A stretch of DNA of 64,000 nucleotides, taken from the NCBI GenBank assembly GCA_034928305.1, contig JAYFOZ010000002.1, positions 248,001 to 312,000 on the forward strand, written 5' to 3'. A program made the translations under genes and the position numbers. Origin of the DNA: Methanomassiliicoccaceae archaeon. Lineage in GTDB: Archaea; Thermoplasmatota; Thermoplasmata; Methanomassiliicoccales; Methanomethylophilaceae. The notes under the pieces were generated by a model that saw only the letters and a program-made list of their open reading frames with translations, was not told the origin of the DNA and did not search any database. Positions 9,017 to 22,876 of the stretch are shown piece after piece. The stretch's first letter is position 1. The number at the start of each line of letters is the position of its first letter.

Positions 9017-9402
9017 TGGCATCCAAATGGGCAATAGCAAACATATTTGCCAGCTACAACAACATCATGATCACGCTTACTGACATAACCGGTGCGGAAA
9101 CGATCGGAAAGGTCACAGGCGGAATGGTGGTCAAGCAGGCGAAGGACCAGTCCTCGCCCTATGCGGCACAGAGGGCGGCAGAGAAGATCGCCGAGATCGC
9201 AAGAGAGAGGGACATCGCCGGCATTCACGTCAAGGTACGTGCCCCCGGAGGAAACAAAGCGACCTCGCCCGGACCCGGTGCGCAGTCAGCGATCCGCGCC
9301 CTCGCAAGGGCAGGCATCAAGATTGGACGCATCGAGGACGTTACTCCAATACCCCACGACGGTACCAAGAAGAAAGGCGGACGCAGAGGACGCAGGGTCT
9401 GA
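9016..9402 (+). CDS. rpsK: Ribosomal protein uS11
   Basis: A 128-residue platform protein of the small subunit. Signature text is [18 protein letters not shown] at the N-terminus, [18 protein letters not shown], and the C-terminal [20 protein letters not shown]. It overlaps rpsD by one base (ATGA-type junction) and is followed after nine bases by rpo3. Confidence 0.97.
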
Positions 9403-9411
9403 GGGACGGAC

Positions 9412-10251
9412 ATGGAAATTGAAATCATCGAAATGGCTGAGAGGAAGGCCAAGTTCATACTGAAGAATTCCTCGCCCGCCATGGCTAACGCGCTCAGAAG
9501 GACCATGCTGTCTGACATACCCAAAATGGCAATAGACAAGGTCGAGTTCCATCTCGGCCCGATCATGGCCAACGACAAAGAGTATGAGAGCGTTACGCCC
9601 CTGTTCGACGAGATCGTTGCCCACAGGCTCGGATTGGTCCCGGTCCCCACGGACCTGGACCTTTTCACACCACAGGACCAGTGCGTCTGCGGCGGAGACG
9701 GATGCCCTAACTGCACCATAATGTACAGCTTGAATAAAATCGGGCCCGGTACAGTGCTGTCAGGCAATATGATTCCCCTCGGGAACCCGGATCTTAAGGT
9801 TAAGGACGAGTTCATCCCGATCGTAGAACTGACAGACGGACAGGCGGTCCTGATCTACGCTACGGCCGTGATGGGCACTGCAAAGAAGCACGTGAAGTGG
9901 CAGGTCGCAAACGGAGTGGGTTACAAATATCTGCCCAAAATCAAGGTGGACCCCGCAAAGGCCTCCTCCGAAGGCGCCCTCAACTGCATGAAAGTCTGCC
10001 CCAAGGACGTATTCGACGTATCTAACGGCAAACTGGTGGTAGCGCGCCCCAGGGACTGCACTCTCTGCAAGTCGTGCATGGACTCTGTAGAAAACGATGG
10101 GTCCATCGTTGTCGAGGGCGATGATAAGAACTTCTTGTTCACATTCGAGACAGACGGTTCGCTCACGGCAGAGCAGACCCTCAACAAGGCGGCCGAGATT
10201 CTCTCCAAGAATGCTTCTGCTCTGTCCGAAGAGATCGCACAGCTGATTTAA
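9412..10251 (+). CDS. rpo3: RNA polymerase subunit Rpo3 (D) with ferredoxin-like insert
   Basis: A 279-residue alpha-like assembly subunit that pairs with Rpo11 to seed RNA polymerase assembly. The alpha-type dimer motif NALRRTMLSDIP lies at residues 26-37. Four cysteines (91, 93, 98, 101) form a likely metal site. A ferredoxin-like segment follows with cysteines 192, 196, 216, 219 and 222 (CMKVCP and CTLCKSC), enough for one [4Fe-4S] cluster. Such Fe-S-containing D subunits are known in some archaea, where the cluster supports folding. It ends in TAA just before a hairpin terminator and converges on polC. Confidence 0.95.
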   Translation: MEIEIIEMAERKAKFILKNSSPAMANALRRTMLSDIPKMAIDKVEFHLGPIMANDKEYESVTPLFDEIVAHRLGLVPVPTDLDLFTPQDQCVCGGDGCPNCTIMYSLNKIGPGTVLSGNMIPLGNPDLKVKDEFIPIVELTDGQAVLIYATAVMGTAKKHVKWQVANGVGYKYLPKIKVDPAKASSEGALNCMKVCPKDVFDVSNGKLVVARPRDCTLCKSCMDSVENDGSIVVEGDDKNFLFTFETDGSLTAEQTLNKAAEILSKNASALSEEIAQLI

Positions 10252-14702: not shown

Positions 14703-17700
14703 TCAGGACTCCCCTATAATCGCTCTTATAAGCCAGAGGTCGGACTTCAAATCGGGGTCAGTGCTCATTTTCGAAGGGATGAGCGCGGACGGACAGTCCT
14801 CGATCAGCACCCCGGCAGTGACCGACCATTTTCCAATGTCGTTTCCGAATATCGTGCAAAGCCCGGAGATATTACTGGAGATATATACTCCGAGTTTCAC
14901 GTCCGGTATGCTGTCTGTCTTTGCAAGTATTTTGGGCGCTTTCATGCCGGTGTACGCTGTCATGGCGAGATCGATGTTGTCATAGAACATCGTGCTGCCG
15001 TCAATACCGTAGGGATTCTCCATGTTGAACAGCAAGGTCTCTATCTTTCCGACAAGATACTTGATCGTATCTCCGACCGTCTTAGAATCTATCGACAAAG
15101 CGACCCTGATGCCGGTGGCCGTTGCACCAACGGCGTCCGAGACCTCGAACGAAATGAAAATCGAGGCCTCCACAAGGCATCCAGCGATCATTTCTATCGA
15201 AGTCGTTATAGCATCCTGTATTGCCCTCTGGAGGAACTCGCTAAGGTCTTCGGTGCCATTCAGGACGCCGTCCATGTCCTCCAGGGTTTTCATGGCCGAC
15301 TCCTTGAAAATATTCTTTATATGCCCTTTGACAAGGTCCCCGTTCACCAGTCCTCCGCAGTTGCCGGTCAGCGGCGTCCCCTTCGCGAACGTCCAATCCA
15401 ATGCGCCGTCGGCCACCCTTTGCCACGTGTAGCTACTGTTTTGCGTGTCCTTTGCCACGGGGGTCCTGTCGATCTCGATGCCCTCGCGGTCCCTGAGGAT
15501 GATACATTCCCCGGACAGGGAATCGTTTTTGTCGTTCAGCAGCCTTACATTTTTATCCAGCATTATAAGCAGCCTCTCATGGGGAACCATCTCATGATTT
15601 TCTAATTTCATCACTTTCATTTTCTCGTTGGATCCCGCGCAAATGCTGAATCCCGATATGTCGGCCGAACGGTTCGATGAGTTGTAAAGCTCGACCCACT
15701 CCTCGCCCGAATCCTCTCCTGCAGGATTTGATTCGAACTCGTTAACAACGACGCCGGACTCGAATGGGATGTTGTATTTCAGGTTCAGCCCCGCGTCGAG
15801 GCTCCCCTTAAGTCCAAGGGCAGGAAGAGGTATGTTCGAAAGAACAGCACCTATCCCCTCTATGTCAGAAAGGCAAATGCTGGCCTCCCTGTACTGTACG
15901 ATATCCGGCATCACAATATCAAAGGAAGTTCCACGGACACTCCCGTTGATGGTGACCAGGTGGTCCGTTGATTTCATCAACGGATCGAAATCGAGTTCCA
16001 GGTCCCAATCTTCCCCCACTACCTCGGCCTCGCCGGTTATGAAATAATCCCTTTCGCCTCTAGTGTCCTTTTCTTTTACGGTCATGCCGCAATCTATTTC
16101 CAGGCCGCTGATATCGCCAGAAAGCCTGACGGTGAGAAGGTTTCTTACGCTTTTGACAAAAGACACGACGTCGGTGGAGAATGTGAGGGTCAGGCCCATG
16201 AAGGACATTCCGACCGTCTGCTTCTTCATTGTCACGGCGAATATGAACTGGATAATGTCAGCGAACCCTCCAATCGTCCGGTTCATAAGGGTGTTGAGCT
16301 GTTCATCTACGAATTTCTTCAGCTCCAATAAAGGCCCCATTATAGATTCGTACAGCCTTTCGATCACCTTTGAGACATACTTGGAAACATCGAGAAGTGC
16401 CGAGTTGATGAGAACGACAACCTCGCGTACCATGGCGAAGATCTTAGTGAGCGGTTCCAAGAGCGGCTCCACGGCTTTCATGAGCAGTTTCCATCCGTCG
16501 CTGAAGATGCTGTTGCTGGCAATGTAAGACGAAACCCCAGAAAGGCCCCATCCGCTGATCACTATTATCTTGATATTCAAAGAAACAGGCACTGTGCCAG
16601 ATATGGAGGAATCGTTAATTCCCAGCAGAGAAGCTATTGTACCTGTGCCTTCGGCGGTGTAATCGATCGTATCTTTGAGACCAACTCTGAAAACCGTACA
16701 ATACGAGGCGCCTTTGTTTTCGTTGAATCCCACAAAGTGGACGCAATCAGCAAGATTTTCGTTCGGGCCGTATACCCTGATATCGGGGGACAGGCCGTCC
16801 GTTATCGATATGGTCTCTTTAGCTGTACCGTCTAAGCCCGTTAGCGTGAAAGATCCCTCCGCAGGAATGTCGATTATGCCGCAATACGGATTCATATACA
16901 TATTCTGGCACATTTCGTTGCAAAGGTTGTTCATCCTTTCCGGGATATCATTAATGACCGCGAGCATAGGCATGGCCTTTTCGCAGATCATCGTAAGGAA
17001 CTTTTTGATAAGGCCGCATTGTCCGTCCGAGACGTTCATGAGGGCGTCGAACTTCTTCAGCATTTCATGTGCGGCCCTCTCGTAATCGGAGACTATCTCT
17101 TCGTAGATCGATGCGGATCTCAGGGATTCCAAGAGGTAATCTTTCTCTTCATCGTTCAATTGGTATGTTTCCAGCGTTCTCTCGATTTCGTCGAAATCAA
17201 TGGCTTTCATAACGTCATTTTTCAACTGATCCACGCCGAAGGCGTTTTCGAAGTTGCGGGTCAGCTTATCGCAGATGGCCGAATAGAACGGATCATAGAT
17301 CGTCTGGTCGCGGATAGAGCTGTTCACGACCTTCTCGACATCTGAGTCCAATTTAGAAAGGGAGCCGTTGAGGCACCTCCTTATTTCATCGGTGAACGGT
17401 TCTCCATCGTTTTCATCTACCGATATAGAGATGCACCCCATCGAGCGATCGGCCCCGATATTTATGGCCGCCGTGTTAAGGACGCTTCTTATCCATTCGC
17501 GTACTTCGTTGCTCTGAAGTCTATATTCGCTCTTGAAATGGCTCAGCCCGTCCCATTTCAGAATGTCGACGTCCGGATATTCGATATGGGCGCTGTATCC
17601 TCCCACGCTGAACGTCTTCTGTTGGCCTTCTATCTCCTTTGTCACAGTGAACTCGGGCACGTAATAGTCTGTGGACTTATTGTTCCAAAGGTACCTGTAT

Positions 17701-18758
17701 TCAGCCTCGGAATATCCCTTAGACTCCATTATCTCCCGGATGTACGGCGAAGCCGACATCGTATCTTTGCCGGTGAAGAAGTTAACGATGGAGTCCCAGG
17801 CGTTCCTAACACTGTCGGACGCGCCGTCCAGGAAATCGATCACAAGGTTGCCGCAGAAGTAATCCGCCCACTGCAATACGATATCGTCCAGAACAGATAT
17901 CAGGGCCTGTGCATAGACGGCCCCTAGGTCGATGCTTATTTTTCCGTCTTTTGCTGCAAGGGCGTCGGCCAGGTCCAGGCCGCCTGTGCCGCTTACAGGC
18001 CCCTCGGAAGAGCTCCTGAAGCTCATCATCTCTATCGCGGAAACACAGCACCTGTATGATTCCATGACGTCTTCATCGGTTATTATCTGACGGGTGCCCA
18101 TGCTCCCGACCGCCGCCGCAGACCCATACCCATTTATGACCCTCTGTTGTGCCAGTGCCGTGAGCTGATAGGTCATCATCTGCGAAAGTACCGAACCTTC
18201 CCCGCTAAGGCAAAGCTCGAACAGAGAGCCCTGCTCGGCTACAAGCGGCAGTGCGCAGCTTCCGTCGGATGATATTATGACCGTTTTTTCTGCGGATCCG
18301 GAATCGCTTTCGTATCTGGCGGTAAAAGAGCCGGTCGCTTTCAAGTAGGTAGGCATGTAGCCTCCCCCGTCGACGTTAATATTCTCGGAGGTCATGCCCA
18401 CATCGAAATCCAGGGCCGTTATGCGAACGCATCCGTTCACAGATGGGAATTGAGATCCTATCCATTTTTTCGCCGAACTGGCGAAGAGCTCCGATCTGGA
18501 AGAGATCGTGCCCGCTCCCGGGTCTTTACCGATGGATGCTATTATCTCGCCCATTCCCCTGTTGACGAAGATCTCGGTATCCCGTACGGCATTTCCTATG
18601 GATTCGATTTCTTCGGCGACGTCTCCCGCGTTCTCCTCGGCCCTCTCGGTCTGAGCGCTGACCACCGAATATGCCAGAGTTATGGCCAATATCGTAACTG
18701 CAATTATTGCGAAGGGCATGTTGCCGCGTCTGCTGTTCCTGACCGCGATTTTTCTCAT
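14703..18758 (-). CDS. Large exported protein with lamin-tail domain
   Basis: A 1351-residue protein of no described function. After a short basic lead (RKIAVRNSRRGN) comes one hydrophobic helix (about residues 14-35) that resembles a type IV pilin or Tad-type signal-anchor. The body is mixed alpha/beta with long helical stretches (for example 430-640 and 760-860). A lamin-tail domain lies at about 1003-1136, starting VVVNEFESNPAGEDSGEEWV, with the typical WVELYN and LDWTFAKGTP pieces. About 215 further residues follow. Most of the protein should face the cell exterior. Lamin-tail domains in prokaryotes occur in surface and nuclease proteins. It is monocistronic, 45 bases behind nog1 and divergent from tes. 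Confidence 0.75.
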   Translation of the reverse strand: MRKIAVRNSRRGNMPFAIIAVTILAITLAYSVVSAQTERAEENAGDVAEEIESIGNAVRDTEIFVNRGMGEIIASIGKDPGAGTISSRSELFASSAKKWIGSQFPSVNGCVRITALDFDVGMTSENINVDGGGYMPTYLKATGSFTARYESDSGSAEKTVIISSDGSCALPLVAEQGSLFELCLSGEGSVLSQMMTYQLTALAQQRVINGYGSAAAVGSMGTRQIITDEDVMESYRCCVSAIEMMSFRSSSEGPVSGTGGLDLADALAAKDGKISIDLGAVYAQALISVLDDIVLQWADYFCGNLVIDFLDGASDSVRNAWDSIVNFFTGKDTMSASPYIREIMESKGYSEAEYRYLWNNKSTDYYVPEFTVTKEIEGQQKTFSVGGYSAHIEYPDVDILKWDGLSHFKSEYRLQSNEVREWIRSVLNTAAINIGADRSMGCISISVDENDGEPFTDEIRRCLNGSLSKLDSDVEKVVNSSIRDQTIYDPFYSAICDKLTRNFENAFGVDQLKNDVMKAIDFDEIERTLETYQLNDEEKDYLLESLRSASIYEEIVSDYERAAHEMLKKFDALMNVSDGQCGLIKKFLTMICEKAMPMLAVINDIPERMNNLCNEMCQNMYMNPYCGIIDIPAEGSFTLTGLDGTAKETISITDGLSPDIRVYGPNENLADCVHFVGFNENKGASYCTVFRVGLKDTIDYTAEGTGTIASLLGINDSSISGTVPVSLNIKIIVISGWGLSGVSSYIASNSIFSDGWKLLMKAVEPLLEPLTKIFAMVREVVVLINSALLDVSKYVSKVIERLYESIMGPLLELKKFVDEQLNTLMNRTIGGFADIIQFIFAVTMKKQTVGMSFMGLTLTFSTDVVSFVKSVRNLLTVRLSGDISGLEIDCGMTVKEKDTRGERDYFITGEAEVVGEDWDLELDFDPLMKSTDHLVTINGSVRGTSFDIVMPDIVQYREASICLSDIEGIGAVLSNIPLPALGLKGSLDAGLNLKYNIPFESGVVVNEFESNPAGEDSGEEWVELYNSSNRSADISGFSICAGSNEKMKVMKLENHEMVPHERLLIMLDKNVRLLNDKNDSLSGECIILRDREGIEIDRTPVAKDTQNSSYTWQRVADGALDWTFAKGTPLTGNCGGLVNGDLVKGHIKNIFKESAMKTLEDMDGVLNGTEDLSEFLQRAIQDAITTSIEMIAGCLVEASIFISFEVSDAVGATATGIRVALSIDSKTVGDTIKYLVGKIETLLFNMENPYGIDGSTMFYDNIDLAMTAYTGMKAPKILAKTDSIPDVKLGVYISSNISGLCTIFGNDIGKWSVTAGVLIEDCPSALIPSKMSTDPDLKSDLWLIRAIIGES

Positions 18759-18848: not shown

Positions 18849-18873
18849 GTATTATTAATAAGAAGAATAATAC
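18849..18873 (+). promoter_or_regulatory. Inverted repeat in the tes promoter
   Basis: GTATTATT (18849-18856) and AATAATAC (18866-18873) are perfect 8-base arms with a 9-base spacer. They overlap the only good AT-rich TATA candidate and lie 27 bases before the tes ATG. This is a candidate operator controlling the lipid operon. Confidence 0.45.
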
Positions 18874-18900
18874 GTGTGCATTAATTCGAAGAGGATAACC

Positions 18901-20523
18901 ATGTCTTCAACAACACAACCTAGCGCACTCAAGAAGGGGCTTCCCAAGAAGACGGAATCACTTTGTCCGGAATGCGGAAAACTCATAGAGGCGAACATCT
19001 ACGAAAAAGATGGTAAAGTATTCATGGAAAAGGAATGTCCCGAGCACGGGCATTTCTCCGATATATACTGGTCAGATGCCGAGGCATATCTCAGGGCCGA
19101 GCACTACGCATACGACGGCGTCGGTCTCAGGAACCCCCATGACGCGTCTCTCGCCAAAGGAGAGAACGTCAATTTCCTGGTCGACGGCAAGAGGTACGAC
19201 ATGCTGTCCTGTACCGCTCTGGCTCTGATAGACCTTACCAATAGATGCAACATGAACTGTCCCATCTGTTTCGCCAATGCGAACCAGTCCGGATACGTCT
19301 ACGAACCTTCTTACGACGAAGTGGTCGCAATGATGGAGGCCCTGCGCGCCGAGGAGCCCATAAAGTGCACTGCAATCCAGTTCTCCGGAGGGGAGCCGAC
19401 GGTCCACCCCAGACTTGTCGACATAATAAAGAAATCGAAGGAGCTCAAATTCGCGCAGGTCCAGGTAGCCACCAACGGAATAGTTTTCGCAAAGGACTAT
19501 GAGAAGCTGAAGGCATGCAAGCTGGCAGGCCTGAATTCCATCTATCTTTCTTTCGACGGTGTCAGCGACGACGTGTACCTTCAGGCGAGGGACAGGAAGA
19601 TGTTCGACGTAAAACTGAAGGTCATAGAGAACTGCAGGAAGCTCAAGGAGGAAATAGGGCACTCGCCGTCCATCGTCCTCGTGCCCACATTGGTAAGGGG
19701 CGTCAACGACCATCAGGTCGGGGCCATAACGGAATTCGCATTCGAGCACTCCGACGTTATCCGCGGGGTAAATTTCCAGCCGGTGGCGTTCACGGGCAGG
19801 ATAACCAGGGAAGAAGTTTCCAAGGGAAGGATAACGCTGACCGATCTGGTCCACAAGTTCGGTGAACAGACCGGATACACAGTGCCGGAAGACTGGTACC
19901 CGGTCCCGGTGGTCGCTCCCATCTCCAACTTCGCTTCGGAGTTCCTTTCTCAGAACAAGGTCACGTTCACGGCACACCCGCACTGCGGGCTTGCCACATA
20001 CTTGTTCCAGTCGGAGGACGGCAAGGTCACGCCGCTTCCGAGATTCGTCGACATAAGAGCGTTCTCCGACGGAATCAACGAGATTGCAGGGAAGATGGAA
20101 GGCTCCAGGTTCAGGAAACTGAGGGCGATCAGCCTACTGAGGTTGCTCAACAAGTGCGTAGACAGCAGCAAGATGCCCCCGGGAATGACCAAGAAGAAGT
20201 TCATCGAAGCAATAACAAGTATTGTAGGAAGCAAATCCAAGAAGACCCTTGCTAAGTTTTCATGGAAGATGATGTACGTCGGCGCTATGCATTTCCAGGA
20301 CTCGTTCAACTACGACGTCGCAAGGGTCGAGCGTTGCGCGATCCACTACATAACGCCGGACCTGAAGATCATACCATTCTGCGCCTACAACGGCGGACCG
20401 GAATACCGTGACGAGGTCGAGGCTAAGTTCTCGATCCCTCTCGCGGAATGGAAACAGCGGAACAAGGAAGAGGCGAAAGCGCTGGAAGAAGCAATGGTGG
20501 TCCCTGAAGACCAGAGGGCCTGA
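18901..20523 (+). CDS. tes: Radical SAM tetraether lipid synthase (Tes family)
   Basis: A 540-residue member of the radical SAM family that couples the ends of two archaeol chains to make tetraether (GDGT) lipids. The N-terminus has a rubredoxin-like CPEC (22-25) and CPEHGHF. The radical SAM cysteines are 116, 120 and 123 in NRCNMNCPICFANA, and the SAM-binding FSGGEPT follows. A C-terminal region with further cysteines (HPHCGL, VERCAIHYI, IIPFCAYN) could bind extra Fe-S clusters. I choose ATG 18901 over an upstream ATG at 18874, which lies at the inverted repeat. A ferredoxin and geranylgeranyl reductase follow at once. Family assignment is good; activity is inferred from homology and context. 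Confidence 0.82.
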   Translation: MSSTTQPSALKKGLPKKTESLCPECGKLIEANIYEKDGKVFMEKECPEHGHFSDIYWSDAEAYLRAEHYAYDGVGLRNPHDASLAKGENVNFLVDGKRYDMLSCTALALIDLTNRCNMNCPICFANANQSGYVYEPSYDEVVAMMEALRAEEPIKCTAIQFSGGEPTVHPRLVDIIKKSKELKFAQVQVATNGIVFAKDYEKLKACKLAGLNSIYLSFDGVSDDVYLQARDRKMFDVKLKVIENCRKLKEEIGHSPSIVLVPTLVRGVNDHQVGAITEFAFEHSDVIRGVNFQPVAFTGRITREEVSKGRITLTDLVHKFGEQTGYTVPEDWYPVPVVAPISNFASEFLSQNKVTFTAHPHCGLATYLFQSEDGKVTPLPRFVDIRAFSDGINEIAGKMEGSRFRKLRAISLLRLLNKCVDSSKMPPGMTKKKFIEAITSIVGSKSKKTLAKFSWKMMYVGAMHFQDSFNYDVARVERCAIHYITPDLKIIPFCAYNGGPEYRDEVEAKFSIPLAEWKQRNKEEAKALEEAMVVPEDQRA

Positions 20524-20532
20524 GGTGATAAT

Positions 20533-20703
20533 ATGACGATATTGGTTGATTTTTACAAATGCCTGCACTGCGGGGGATGTGCCGGGTCATGCCCGAAGAA
20601 CGCGATATTCCTGAACGACTTTGTTCTCGAATTCAACGATAAATGCAATTCCTGCGGAAGATGCGTTAAAATATGCCCGGTCGCGGCGCTCAGGATGGAA
20701 TGA
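20533..20703 (+). CDS. Small dicluster 4Fe-4S ferredoxin
   Basis: A 56-residue protein with two ferredoxin motifs, CLHCGGCAGSCP and CNSCGRCVKICP, enough for two [4Fe-4S] clusters. ATG 20533 follows the tes stop by nine bases and is preceded by GAGGTGATA. Its TGA ends four bases before the geranylgeranyl reductase ATG. This position makes it the probable electron donor to one or both neighbours. Ferredoxin next to geranylgeranyl reductase is known from other methanogens, where it supports double-bond reduction. Confidence 0.92.
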   Translation: MTILVDFYKCLHCGGCAGSCPKNAIFLNDFVLEFNDKCNSCGRCVKICPVAALRME

Positions 20704-20707
20704 TAAT

Positions 20708-21901
20708 ATGAAAATCTACAACTGCGACATAGTGATCGTCGGTGCGGGACCGGGCGGCAGCATGGCCGCCAAATTCTGTGCACAGGCAGGGCTGGATACG
20801 ATCATGATCGAAAAGAAGGCCGAGATAGGCGCACCCCTGAGATGCGCCGAAGGCGTATCGAAGAAATGGCTCGCGGAGGTCGGGATAGAGCCTGACCCGG
20901 CATGGATCTGCGCCGATATGGCCGGAGCCGTGATCAGGTCCCCCAGCGGATATACGTTCCAGCTCGACGAGAGCAGGGCGGGGTCCGAGGTCGGATACGT
21001 GCTCGAGAGACACCTGTTTGATAAGGCCCTCGCCAGGGACGCTGCGGAAGCAGGCGCCAAGATAATGATGCGCACCTCGTGCACCGACGTGATAAAGAAG
21101 GACGGAAAGCTGGTAGGCATCAAGGCCAAGGTCATGGGAGAGCCCATCGAGATCTATGCAGATTGCGTCGTCGCGGCGGACGGATATGAGTCCCAGGTGG
21201 CAAGATGGGCAGGCGTAGAAACGACTCCAAAGATGAACGATATCGATACATGCATACAGTACAGGATGTCCAACATCGATATCGATCAGAAGTACTGCGA
21301 GTTCGTCATAGGCAACGAGATAGCGCCGGGAGGATACCTGTGGATATTCCCTAAGGGAAACCGCTCCGCCAACGTCGGTATCGGCGTAATGGCCAAGCGC
21401 TGTAAGAAGCCGGGCGACCCCAAATTCTATCTTGACAAATTCGTCGCAGGCGACGACCGCCTGAAGGACGGGCAGATCCTGGAGATCGTAGGAGGCATGG
21501 TATCCACCTGCCCCGGACTCGACTCCGCCACCGCCGATAACCTTGTGATCGTAGGGGACGCGGCAAGGATAATCGACCCGATCACCGGCGGAGGCATATG
21601 CCACGCCTGCAGGACAGGGATGTATGCCGGAAAGGTGCTCGCCGAATGCGCCAAAAAGAAGGATTTCTCGAAGGTTGCGCTTAAACCTTACGAGAAACTC
21701 TGGCGTGACAGGATGGAGGACAAGATATACAGGAATTGGATGGCCAAAGAGAGGCTCAACGAGCTCGATGATGATACGATCGACGATCTGATCAAGATCA
21801 TAAGCACGTCCGCCATCGAAGAAGTCAACGTGTATAACCTTCTGAAGGTCATCAAGGACAAGTATCCTAAGGTCGTCGAAGGCTTCGAAGACCTTATCTG
21901 A
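20708..21901 (+). CDS. Geranylgeranyl reductase (digeranylgeranylglycerophospholipid reductase)
   Basis: A 397-residue FAD enzyme that saturates the isoprenoid chains of archaeal lipids. The dinucleotide motif IVGAGPGGSMAA is at residues 10-21, with IEKK at the end of the second strand. The family segment CAEGVSKKWL lies near 51, and the second FAD motif NLVIVGDAARIIDPITGGGI near 278-298. ATG 20708 is favoured; a longer upstream frame runs through the ferredoxin gene. It is the last gene of the tes-ferredoxin unit, with a hairpin terminator right behind it. Confidence 0.93.
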   Translation: MKIYNCDIVIVGAGPGGSMAAKFCAQAGLDTIMIEKKAEIGAPLRCAEGVSKKWLAEVGIEPDPAWICADMAGAVIRSPSGYTFQLDESRAGSEVGYVLERHLFDKALARDAAEAGAKIMMRTSCTDVIKKDGKLVGIKAKVMGEPIEIYADCVVAADGYESQVARWAGVETTPKMNDIDTCIQYRMSNIDIDQKYCEFVIGNEIAPGGYLWIFPKGNRSANVGIGVMAKRCKKPGDPKFYLDKFVAGDDRLKDGQILEIVGGMVSTCPGLDSATADNLVIVGDAARIIDPITGGGICHACRTGMYAGKVLAECAKKKDFSKVALKPYEKLWRDRMEDKIYRNWMAKERLNELDDDTIDDLIKIISTSAIEEVNVYNLLKVIKDKYPKVVEGFEDLI

Positions 21902-21910
21902 AACAATTTT

Positions 21911-21935
21911 ACCGGCCGGAAGGCCGGTGTGATAT
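21911..21935 (+). terminator. Hairpin terminator between geranylgeranyl reductase and mevalonate kinase
   Basis: ACCGGCC and GGCCGGT (7-base arms) with a GGAA loop are followed by TATTTTTA. The site lies between two converging genes and may serve both. Confidence 0.6.
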
Positions 21936-21937
21936 TT

Positions 21938-22876
21938 TTATAAAGTTTTATCTACCGTCACGCCGGGCACACCGGTCTTGACGATCATGGGCGTACCGCC
22001 GTGCAGGCGGATGGTTTCGCAGACTTTTTTTGGTTCATCGGTCAGAGCGATCATGCTCCCGCCTCCCCCGGCACCAGTCAGCTTGGCACCGTAGGAATAT
22101 TCGGCCGCCGCATCAACCAGCCGGTTAAGTTCCGGGCTGGAGACCCCTAATATCGAAAGCAGTTTATGGTCGGCGGTCATGAGCTCGCCCAGCCTTACTC
22201 TGTCGTTCCTGCGCAACGCGTCAGTGCCCTCAAGAGTTACGGAGCCGATCTCATCCACAATATCTTTGGCAAAACGGTTGCGGTCCTTGTATCTGCGGAC
22301 CTTTTCCACCAGAGGGCCGGTCAGTGCCTTTATGCCCGTATATCCGACAACAAATGTCATTTCTGGCGCGTGGATGTCGCTGACCTCCCATCTATTGCCG
22401 TTGCGTTCTATGGTCCACAGCGGATCCTCATCACTGGGTATGTTCACCGCAATGCCTTTTCCGTGCACGGATGCAGAGGTATCCATCGGGCTTCCGATGC
22501 CTTGGGCGCTGAACTCGGCCTCATAAGCCTCGTTTATTATATCCTTCTCATCCGCGGGTTTTTCAATAAGGGTGCGTACAGCGCAGGAGAGCGCCGCCGA
22601 CAATGCAGCGGAGGAGCCAAGTCCGGACCCAGACGGCAGGTCGCTGTCCGTCCCGATACTCATGCTCCTTATTCCGTGTTCTTTAAGGATATGTCTCATG
22701 TGTGGGTGCAAGGACAGGTCATCGGGCATTCCGTTCAATAGGAGCCCGCTACTTTCCGTGACCGTACACCTGAAGCGTCTGTCTATCGCCAGTGCCACTG
22801 CGGGTTTTCCATATACGACAGCGTGCTCTCCCAGTACTACGAACTTCCCCGGAGCAGATGCGGTCACCGATATCAT
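21938..22876 (-). CDS. mvk: Mevalonate kinase
   Basis: A 312-residue GHMP kinase that phosphorylates mevalonate in isoprenoid synthesis. Motif 1 is SAPGKFVVLGEHAVVYG at the N-terminus. The ATP-binding loop LPSGSGLGSSAALSA is near 85-99. The catalytic aspartate is in GIGSPMDTSAS. Motif 3 is KLTGAGGGGSMIAL near the C-terminus. It converges on the lipid operon, which uses the same isoprenoids, although it is transcribed separately. Its ATG overlaps the stop of the preceding gene by four bases (ATGA), so it is translationally coupled with the two genes upstream. Confidence 0.95.
   Translation of the reverse strand: MISVTASAPGKFVVLGEHAVVYGKPAVALAIDRRFRCTVTESSGLLLNGMPDDLSLHPHMRHILKEHGIRSMSIGTDSDLPSGSGLGSSAALSAALSCAVRTLIEKPADEKDIINEAYEAEFSAQGIGSPMDTSASVHGKGIAVNIPSDEDPLWTIERNGNRWEVSDIHAPEMTFVVGYTGIKALTGPLVEKVRRYKDRNRFAKDIVDEIGSVTLEGTDALRRNDRVRLGELMTADHKLLSILGVSSPELNRLVDAAAEYSYGAKLTGAGGGGSMIALTDEPKKVCETIRLHGGTPMIVKTGVPGVTVDKTL

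Follow-up and report, generated by a model that had tools for sequence, protein, structure and literature searches.

A Thermoplasmatota form of the tes-ferredoxin-GGR gene cluster whose tetraether lipid synthase lacks the [Fe4S4]N ligands

The window, a 64,000-nucleotide stretch of a Methanomethylophilaceae genome (Methanomassiliicoccales), carries closely packed genes for a tetraether lipid synthase (Tes), a dicluster ferredoxin and a geranylgeranyl reductase (GGR), and its Tes has lost the conserved ligands of the surface cluster [Fe4S4]N. We consider it likely that the locus represents a known operon in its Thermoplasmatota form, in which the ferredoxin serves GGR and tes joined later, and that its Tes works, [Fe4S4]N being lost and dispensable. 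The tes-ferredoxin-GGR operon itself is not new. In Methanosarcina acetivorans, genes of the same families lie adjacent as MA_1486-MA_1485-MA_1484 (PMC8941075; Isobe 2014), and Zeng 2022 chose Tes partly because MA_1486 adjoins the ferredoxin MA_1485, which is required by the GGR MA_1484 (PMC8941075). The new part of the locus is the Tes without [Fe4S4]N ligands, for which we found no earlier description; loss of this cluster is not discussed in the papers searched, which cover part of the literature. The original prediction for this DNA was right about the enzymes and their tight clustering and overlooked the change in the cofactors of Tes.

Layout of the locus

The source genome (1.34 Mb, 98.9% complete) encodes one intact tes and one strong GGR. 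Open reading frames and profile matches agree with the original prediction, which covered 18849-21937, a span that starts in the upstream region and stops just short of the mevalonate kinase gene (mvk), and which had placed Tes, a 56-residue dicluster ferredoxin and GGR at spacings of 4 to 9 bases. The three genes share one strand, their reading frames in the window being separated by 9 and 4 bases, and their order is not due to chance, because it recurs in 71 loci. Tes reached 593.8 bits with the NF045702 equivalog (cut-off 450) and matched the structure of the M. jannaschii enzyme GDGT-MAS (7TOL) at 2e-145. The ferredoxin matched Fer4, with two CxxCxxCxxxCP motifs. For GGR, we obtained 224.6 bits against TIGR02032 (cut-off 158.8) and 113.1 bits for the catalytic domain PF22578; the closest solved structure is that of Thermoplasma acidophilum GGR (3OZ2, 7e-108), and the protein falls under the NF041160 equivalog cut-off (402.7 versus 780 bits).

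Judging from the spacing and the terminator-like hairpin downstream of GGR, the three genes are probably co-transcribed. The hairpin (fold z-scores of -3.9 on the forward and -3.0 on the reverse strand) lies between GGR and mvk, whose product exceeded the TIGR00549 cut-off and whose near end is 36 bases from the GGR stop. Mevalonate kinase had been described as converging on the operon, and it does converge on GGR; mvk, behind a terminator-like hairpin that reads both ways, is outside the operon transcript. Conservation of this neighbour, in the same convergent position, extends across the order and no further. On the other side, a 1351-aa protein encoded on the reverse strand (14703-18758), with one Lamin Tail Domain and otherwise no family match, is divergent from tes and adjoins it across the order.

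Table 1. Features of the tes locus (window coordinates).
Feature	Position (strand)	Details
tes, radical SAM tetraether lipid synthase, without [Fe4S4]N site	18901..20523 (+)	ATG 18901, stop 20523, 540 aa
Rubredoxin-type Fe site of Tes (C22, C25, C46, H49), kept	18964..19047 (+)	aligned to M. jannaschii (MJ) C9/C12/C33/H36 (PMC9433317)
Tes residues 78-103, region of the MJ [Fe4S4]N loop CPxxCGLCxxH; here NPHDASLAKGENVNFLVDGKRYDMLS	19132..19209 (+)	column comparison, model
Radical SAM CX3CX2C (C116-C120-C123), kept	19246..19269 (+)	alignment, PF04055
Putative [Fe4S4]C ligand span (C362, M463 as labile Met, C479, C494; conserved Y483), kept	19984..20382 (+)	alignment
Dicluster [4Fe-4S] ferredoxin, GGR partner	20533..20703 (+)	56 aa, Fer4, synteny with GGR
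Geranylgeranyl (digeranylgeranylglycerophospholipid) reductase, GGR	20708..21901 (+)	397 aa; TIGR02032, PF22578 GGR_cat, 3OZ2
Hairpin, GC-rich with T-rich flank, between GGR and mvk	21910..21929	terminator-like in both directions
Mevalonate kinase (mvk), convergent neighbour outside the operon	21938..22876 (-)	TIGR00549

Synteny of the ferredoxin

The original prediction had held that the ferredoxin feeds both Tes and GGR, and had proposed comparing tes and GGR synteny across archaea, a comparison already published for Methanosarcina (PMC8941075). We gathered tes loci from the order, the phylum and other archaeal phyla, counted distinct loci with enough flank, and called tes and GGR linked when a same-strand GGR lay no more than 1 kb downstream. 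A dicluster ferredoxin was located between tes and GGR in 71/71 linked loci (69 scored by script; L048 and L100 by reading the intergenic DNA). In contrast, none of the 57 tes loci without a linked GGR had a same-strand ferredoxin within 1 kb of tes. GGR loci were then taken from 32 genomes, mostly with GGR unlinked to tes (L203 is a linked Methanosarcina locus), and in 28 of the 29 unlinked loci the ferredoxin was immediately upstream of GGR (L205 scored by reading), the sole exception being the ANME-2 locus L216. Such ferredoxin-GGR pairs without tes were seen in Methanobrevibacter, Methanofollis, Methanoperedens, Bathyarchaeota, a DPANN archaeon, Archaeoglobi and others. The loci are phylogenetically non-independent, and the contrast of 0/57 versus 28/29 is insensitive to the exact counts. 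Because the ferredoxin tracks GGR and never tes alone, ferredoxin-GGR is the old, constant unit: the ferredoxin is the partner of GGR, and tes is a later addition. Since this holds irrespective of tes, the synteny argument for a ferredoxin feeding Tes falls, although the protein may also donate electrons to Tes.

These data fit what is known of the pair. GGR-ferredoxin synteny is largely conserved in Euryarchaeota according to a 2022 review (PMC9385802), with the ferredoxin directly beside GGR as in the window, and our survey extends it to Bathyarchaeota, a DPANN archaeon and Archaeoglobi metagenome-assembled genomes. Compared to the plain pair, Thermoplasmatota and Methanosarcina have tes added upstream. 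In Methanosarcina spelaei (L150), order and strand are as in the window, with a wider gap between tes and the ferredoxin; the Methanosarcina cluster differs from that of the window in a Tes with an intact [Fe4S4]N motif and in having no convergent mvk. As the review relates, GGR is more active in E. coli when the ferredoxin encoded next to it is present (Isobe 2014, via PMC9385802), and by analogy the window's GGR may saturate its lipid in a ferredoxin-dependent manner.

Loss of the [Fe4S4]N ligands

In the M. jannaschii enzyme, [Fe4S4]N is a surface auxiliary cluster bound by C73, C77, C80 and a conserved histidine (PMC9433317); we did not count this site among the defining features of Tes. 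The window's Tes shares 50% identity and the same fold with this protein (GDGT-MAS, MJ0619; 7TOL, 7TOM; PMC9433317) and resembles it in the ligands of the rubredoxin iron, [Fe4S4]RS and [Fe4S4]C, whereas C73/C77/C80/H83, and with them the Cys triad of CPYDCGLC, are missing from the alignment and a predicted hairpin stands in their place. By its position, the lost H83 would be the published histidine ligand. The columns of [Fe4S4]C were aligned to MJ C338, C455, C470, Met439 and Tyr459 (PMC9433317), and the conservation of C338, C455 and C470 suggests that these cysteines are the cluster ligands. To define what had been lost, we compared 496 aligned positions for residues at least 90% conserved in motif-bearing Tes and at most 10% in the clade of the window's Tes (32 sequences): only C73, P74, C77, C80 and H83 (MJ numbering) behaved in this way, and all residues known for Tes catalysis are kept. 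An AlphaFold model of the window's Tes (pLDDT 90.7, pTM 0.92) superimposed on 7TOM with a TM score of 0.91 normalised by the target and an rmsd of 3.1 Å, indicating that the GDGT-MAS fold is kept, and it placed a confident predicted β-hairpin (residues 91-94/97-100) where the [Fe4S4]N loop would be. Within the replaced loop, three Tes of the same family (L046, L166, L240) have a Cys pair that may be a remnant or form a different metal site; other residues could still bind metal in some genera without the motif.

We next mapped the motif across archaea, using the group codes f1 to f33, where f1 is the window's family, Methanomethylophilaceae. M. jannaschii has the motif, as do the examined Tes of Methanosarcina, Methanoperedens, Methanomicrobia, Methanobacteriaceae, Bathyarchaeota, Hadesarchaea, Hydrothermarchaeum and DPANN and those of four Methanomassiliicoccales families (f2, f3, f5, f6). 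It is absent from all examined f1 Tes, including those of the best 30 of 102 genomes searched, and from f4 Tes. In a Tes tree built without the columns of this trait, the f1 and f4 proteins group together as a single clade of 25 tips (SH-aLRT 99), which branches within motif-keeping Tes. The whole tree shows four state changes without L174, a protein truncated at a contig edge that had first been scored as motif-less and was left out of the count, and five with it, at least three of these being forced by well-supported branches. That the loss is unique to the window's family was rejected, as it recurs in f8, f16 and f20; in f12/f33, one [Fe4S4]N Cys and the rubredoxin Cys are lost. Three Tes relatives (L116, L117, L118) show roughly the reverse of the window's case, lacking the rubredoxin Cys and carrying CGLCxxH. 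On a long branch among Thermoplasmatota Tes lies a protein from a contig filed as Bryobacterales bacterium (L201, PLRS01000094.1), which reflects a transfer or a binning error.

The f8 genome G125, a single contig of 1,486,778 bp encoding a single Tes, which lacks the motif, is presumably Aciduliprofundum boonei T469. The loss elsewhere in Thermoplasmatota thus probably includes Aciduliprofundum. Later papers attribute to A. boonei the synthesis of tetraethers (Schouten 2008, via PMC5572230, PMC11186832), and, provided that G125 is this species, Tes lacking [Fe4S4]N works in vivo.

Further tes copies were recorded alongside. A frameshifted 3' remnant of a second tes lies on contig 1 of the window's genome (G000, 208882-209063; L073, about 9383-9564), between a gene for an ATPase/VWA-domain chelatase-like protein and a nifS-iscU-cysteine synthase gene group. 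We rejected it as the counterpart of the second tes in G033, which is in a different place. Full-length second copies occur in G033 (G033:C1:552408-553895, L044) and G026 (G026:C1:261144-262610, L066), neither with an adjoining ferredoxin or GGR. Most Methanomassiliicoccales also encode a shorter Tes-like radical SAM protein of ~460 aa, aligning to positions 2-314 of the Tes profile (for example G001:C1:131012-131950 and G016:C1:604065-604997), a possible lipid or pterin enzyme; it is absent from the window's genome, and none was seen in genera g3-g6.

Proposed function of a Tes without [Fe4S4]N

In the mechanism that we propose, reduced ferredoxin would deliver electrons to the FAD of GGR, which would saturate the geranylgeranyl chains of the diether lipid, a step supported by work on Methanosarcina. 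Tes would join the saturated phytanyl tails into biphytanyl chains using [Fe4S4]RS and [Fe4S4]C: a 5'-deoxyadenosyl radical would abstract a terminal hydrogen, the substrate radical would be parked on [Fe4S4]C, and the second tail would be coupled to it (PMC9433317). The surface [Fe4S4]N, presumably swapped for a short hairpin in Methanomethylophilaceae and the neighbouring family, would not be needed for this chemistry, and electrons may reach the radical SAM cluster via the remaining surface rubredoxin iron or directly. As Tes couples saturated substrates (PMC9433317), the coupling of saturation to tail joining that had been read from the operon makes sense for the pathway.

The alternatives concern the electron supply and the competence of Tes. 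The original claim of a ferredoxin acting as common donor of GGR and Tes appears doubtful: across 71 loci the three genes keep their order and close packing, radical SAM enzymes require low-potential electrons, and a ferredoxin can activate the radical SAM enzyme MiaB, as cited in PMC10470005, but the synteny counts run against it, and MA_1486 Tes expressed alone in M. maripaludis made GDGT (PMC8941075). We regard as very improbable the related view that Tes became dependent on the operon ferredoxin when it lost [Fe4S4]N, the ferredoxin now reducing the radical SAM cluster directly. In the clade without the cluster tes does stay beside the ferredoxin, and the outer auxiliary cluster of PapB mediates external electron transfer (PMC10470005). 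However, the tes-ferredoxin linkage predates the cluster loss, because cluster-keeping Methanomassiliicoccales families have the same operon, and f20, without the cluster, has tes away from GGR and without a ferredoxin. A tie between cluster loss and ferredoxin linkage was likewise rejected, since a cross-table shows both cluster states with and without linkage.

We think it improbable that Tes in the window's family has switched product or substrate, making for example just macrocyclic or single-bridged lipids, or that its function is being lost. In favour of this reading, one cluster is lost, a truncated and frameshifted tes remnant persists elsewhere in the genome, and MA_1114, the second homologue in M. 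acetivorans, yielded no more than traces of macrocyclic archaeol (PMC8941075). Yet tes is found in nearly every member of f1, including 45/45 low-contamination genomes that are at least 90% complete, the known catalytic residues and the operon are kept, and Aciduliprofundum, which probably lacks the cluster, is described as making tetraethers (PMC5572230). We therefore favour a working Tes in the Thermoplasmatota form of the operon: the window's enzyme is predicted from its sequence to form biphytanyl chains and GDGT, and, because on this proposal Tes without [Fe4S4]N still works, the cluster looks dispensable for tail joining. In the literature searched, we found no lipid analysis of any Methanomethylophilaceae member. 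Whether an entire family within Thermoplasmatota makes tetraethers with a Tes that lacks one of three [Fe4S4] clusters and keeps the other conserved positions is, in our judgement, evenly balanced.

The synteny counts correct an easy over-reading of the operon, as the ferredoxin goes with GGR. For Tes, the two CxxxCxxC motifs have been proposed as possibly two active sites (PMC8941075), and the structure paper suggested a possible role of the auxiliary cofactors in adjusting potentials and electron transfer (PMC9433317). On the proposed mechanism, the loss of [Fe4S4]N speaks against the two motifs representing two active sites. If our reading is true, the first CX3CX2C motif would not be a second active site, and electrons for the radical SAM cluster would take another route, through the rubredoxin iron or a docked donor such as the operon ferredoxin. 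The window's Tes is a natural test of the purpose of [Fe4S4]N: with a natural enzyme that lacks the first motif, the reduction of Tes and the roles of its surface metal centres would be directly testable without mutagenesis.
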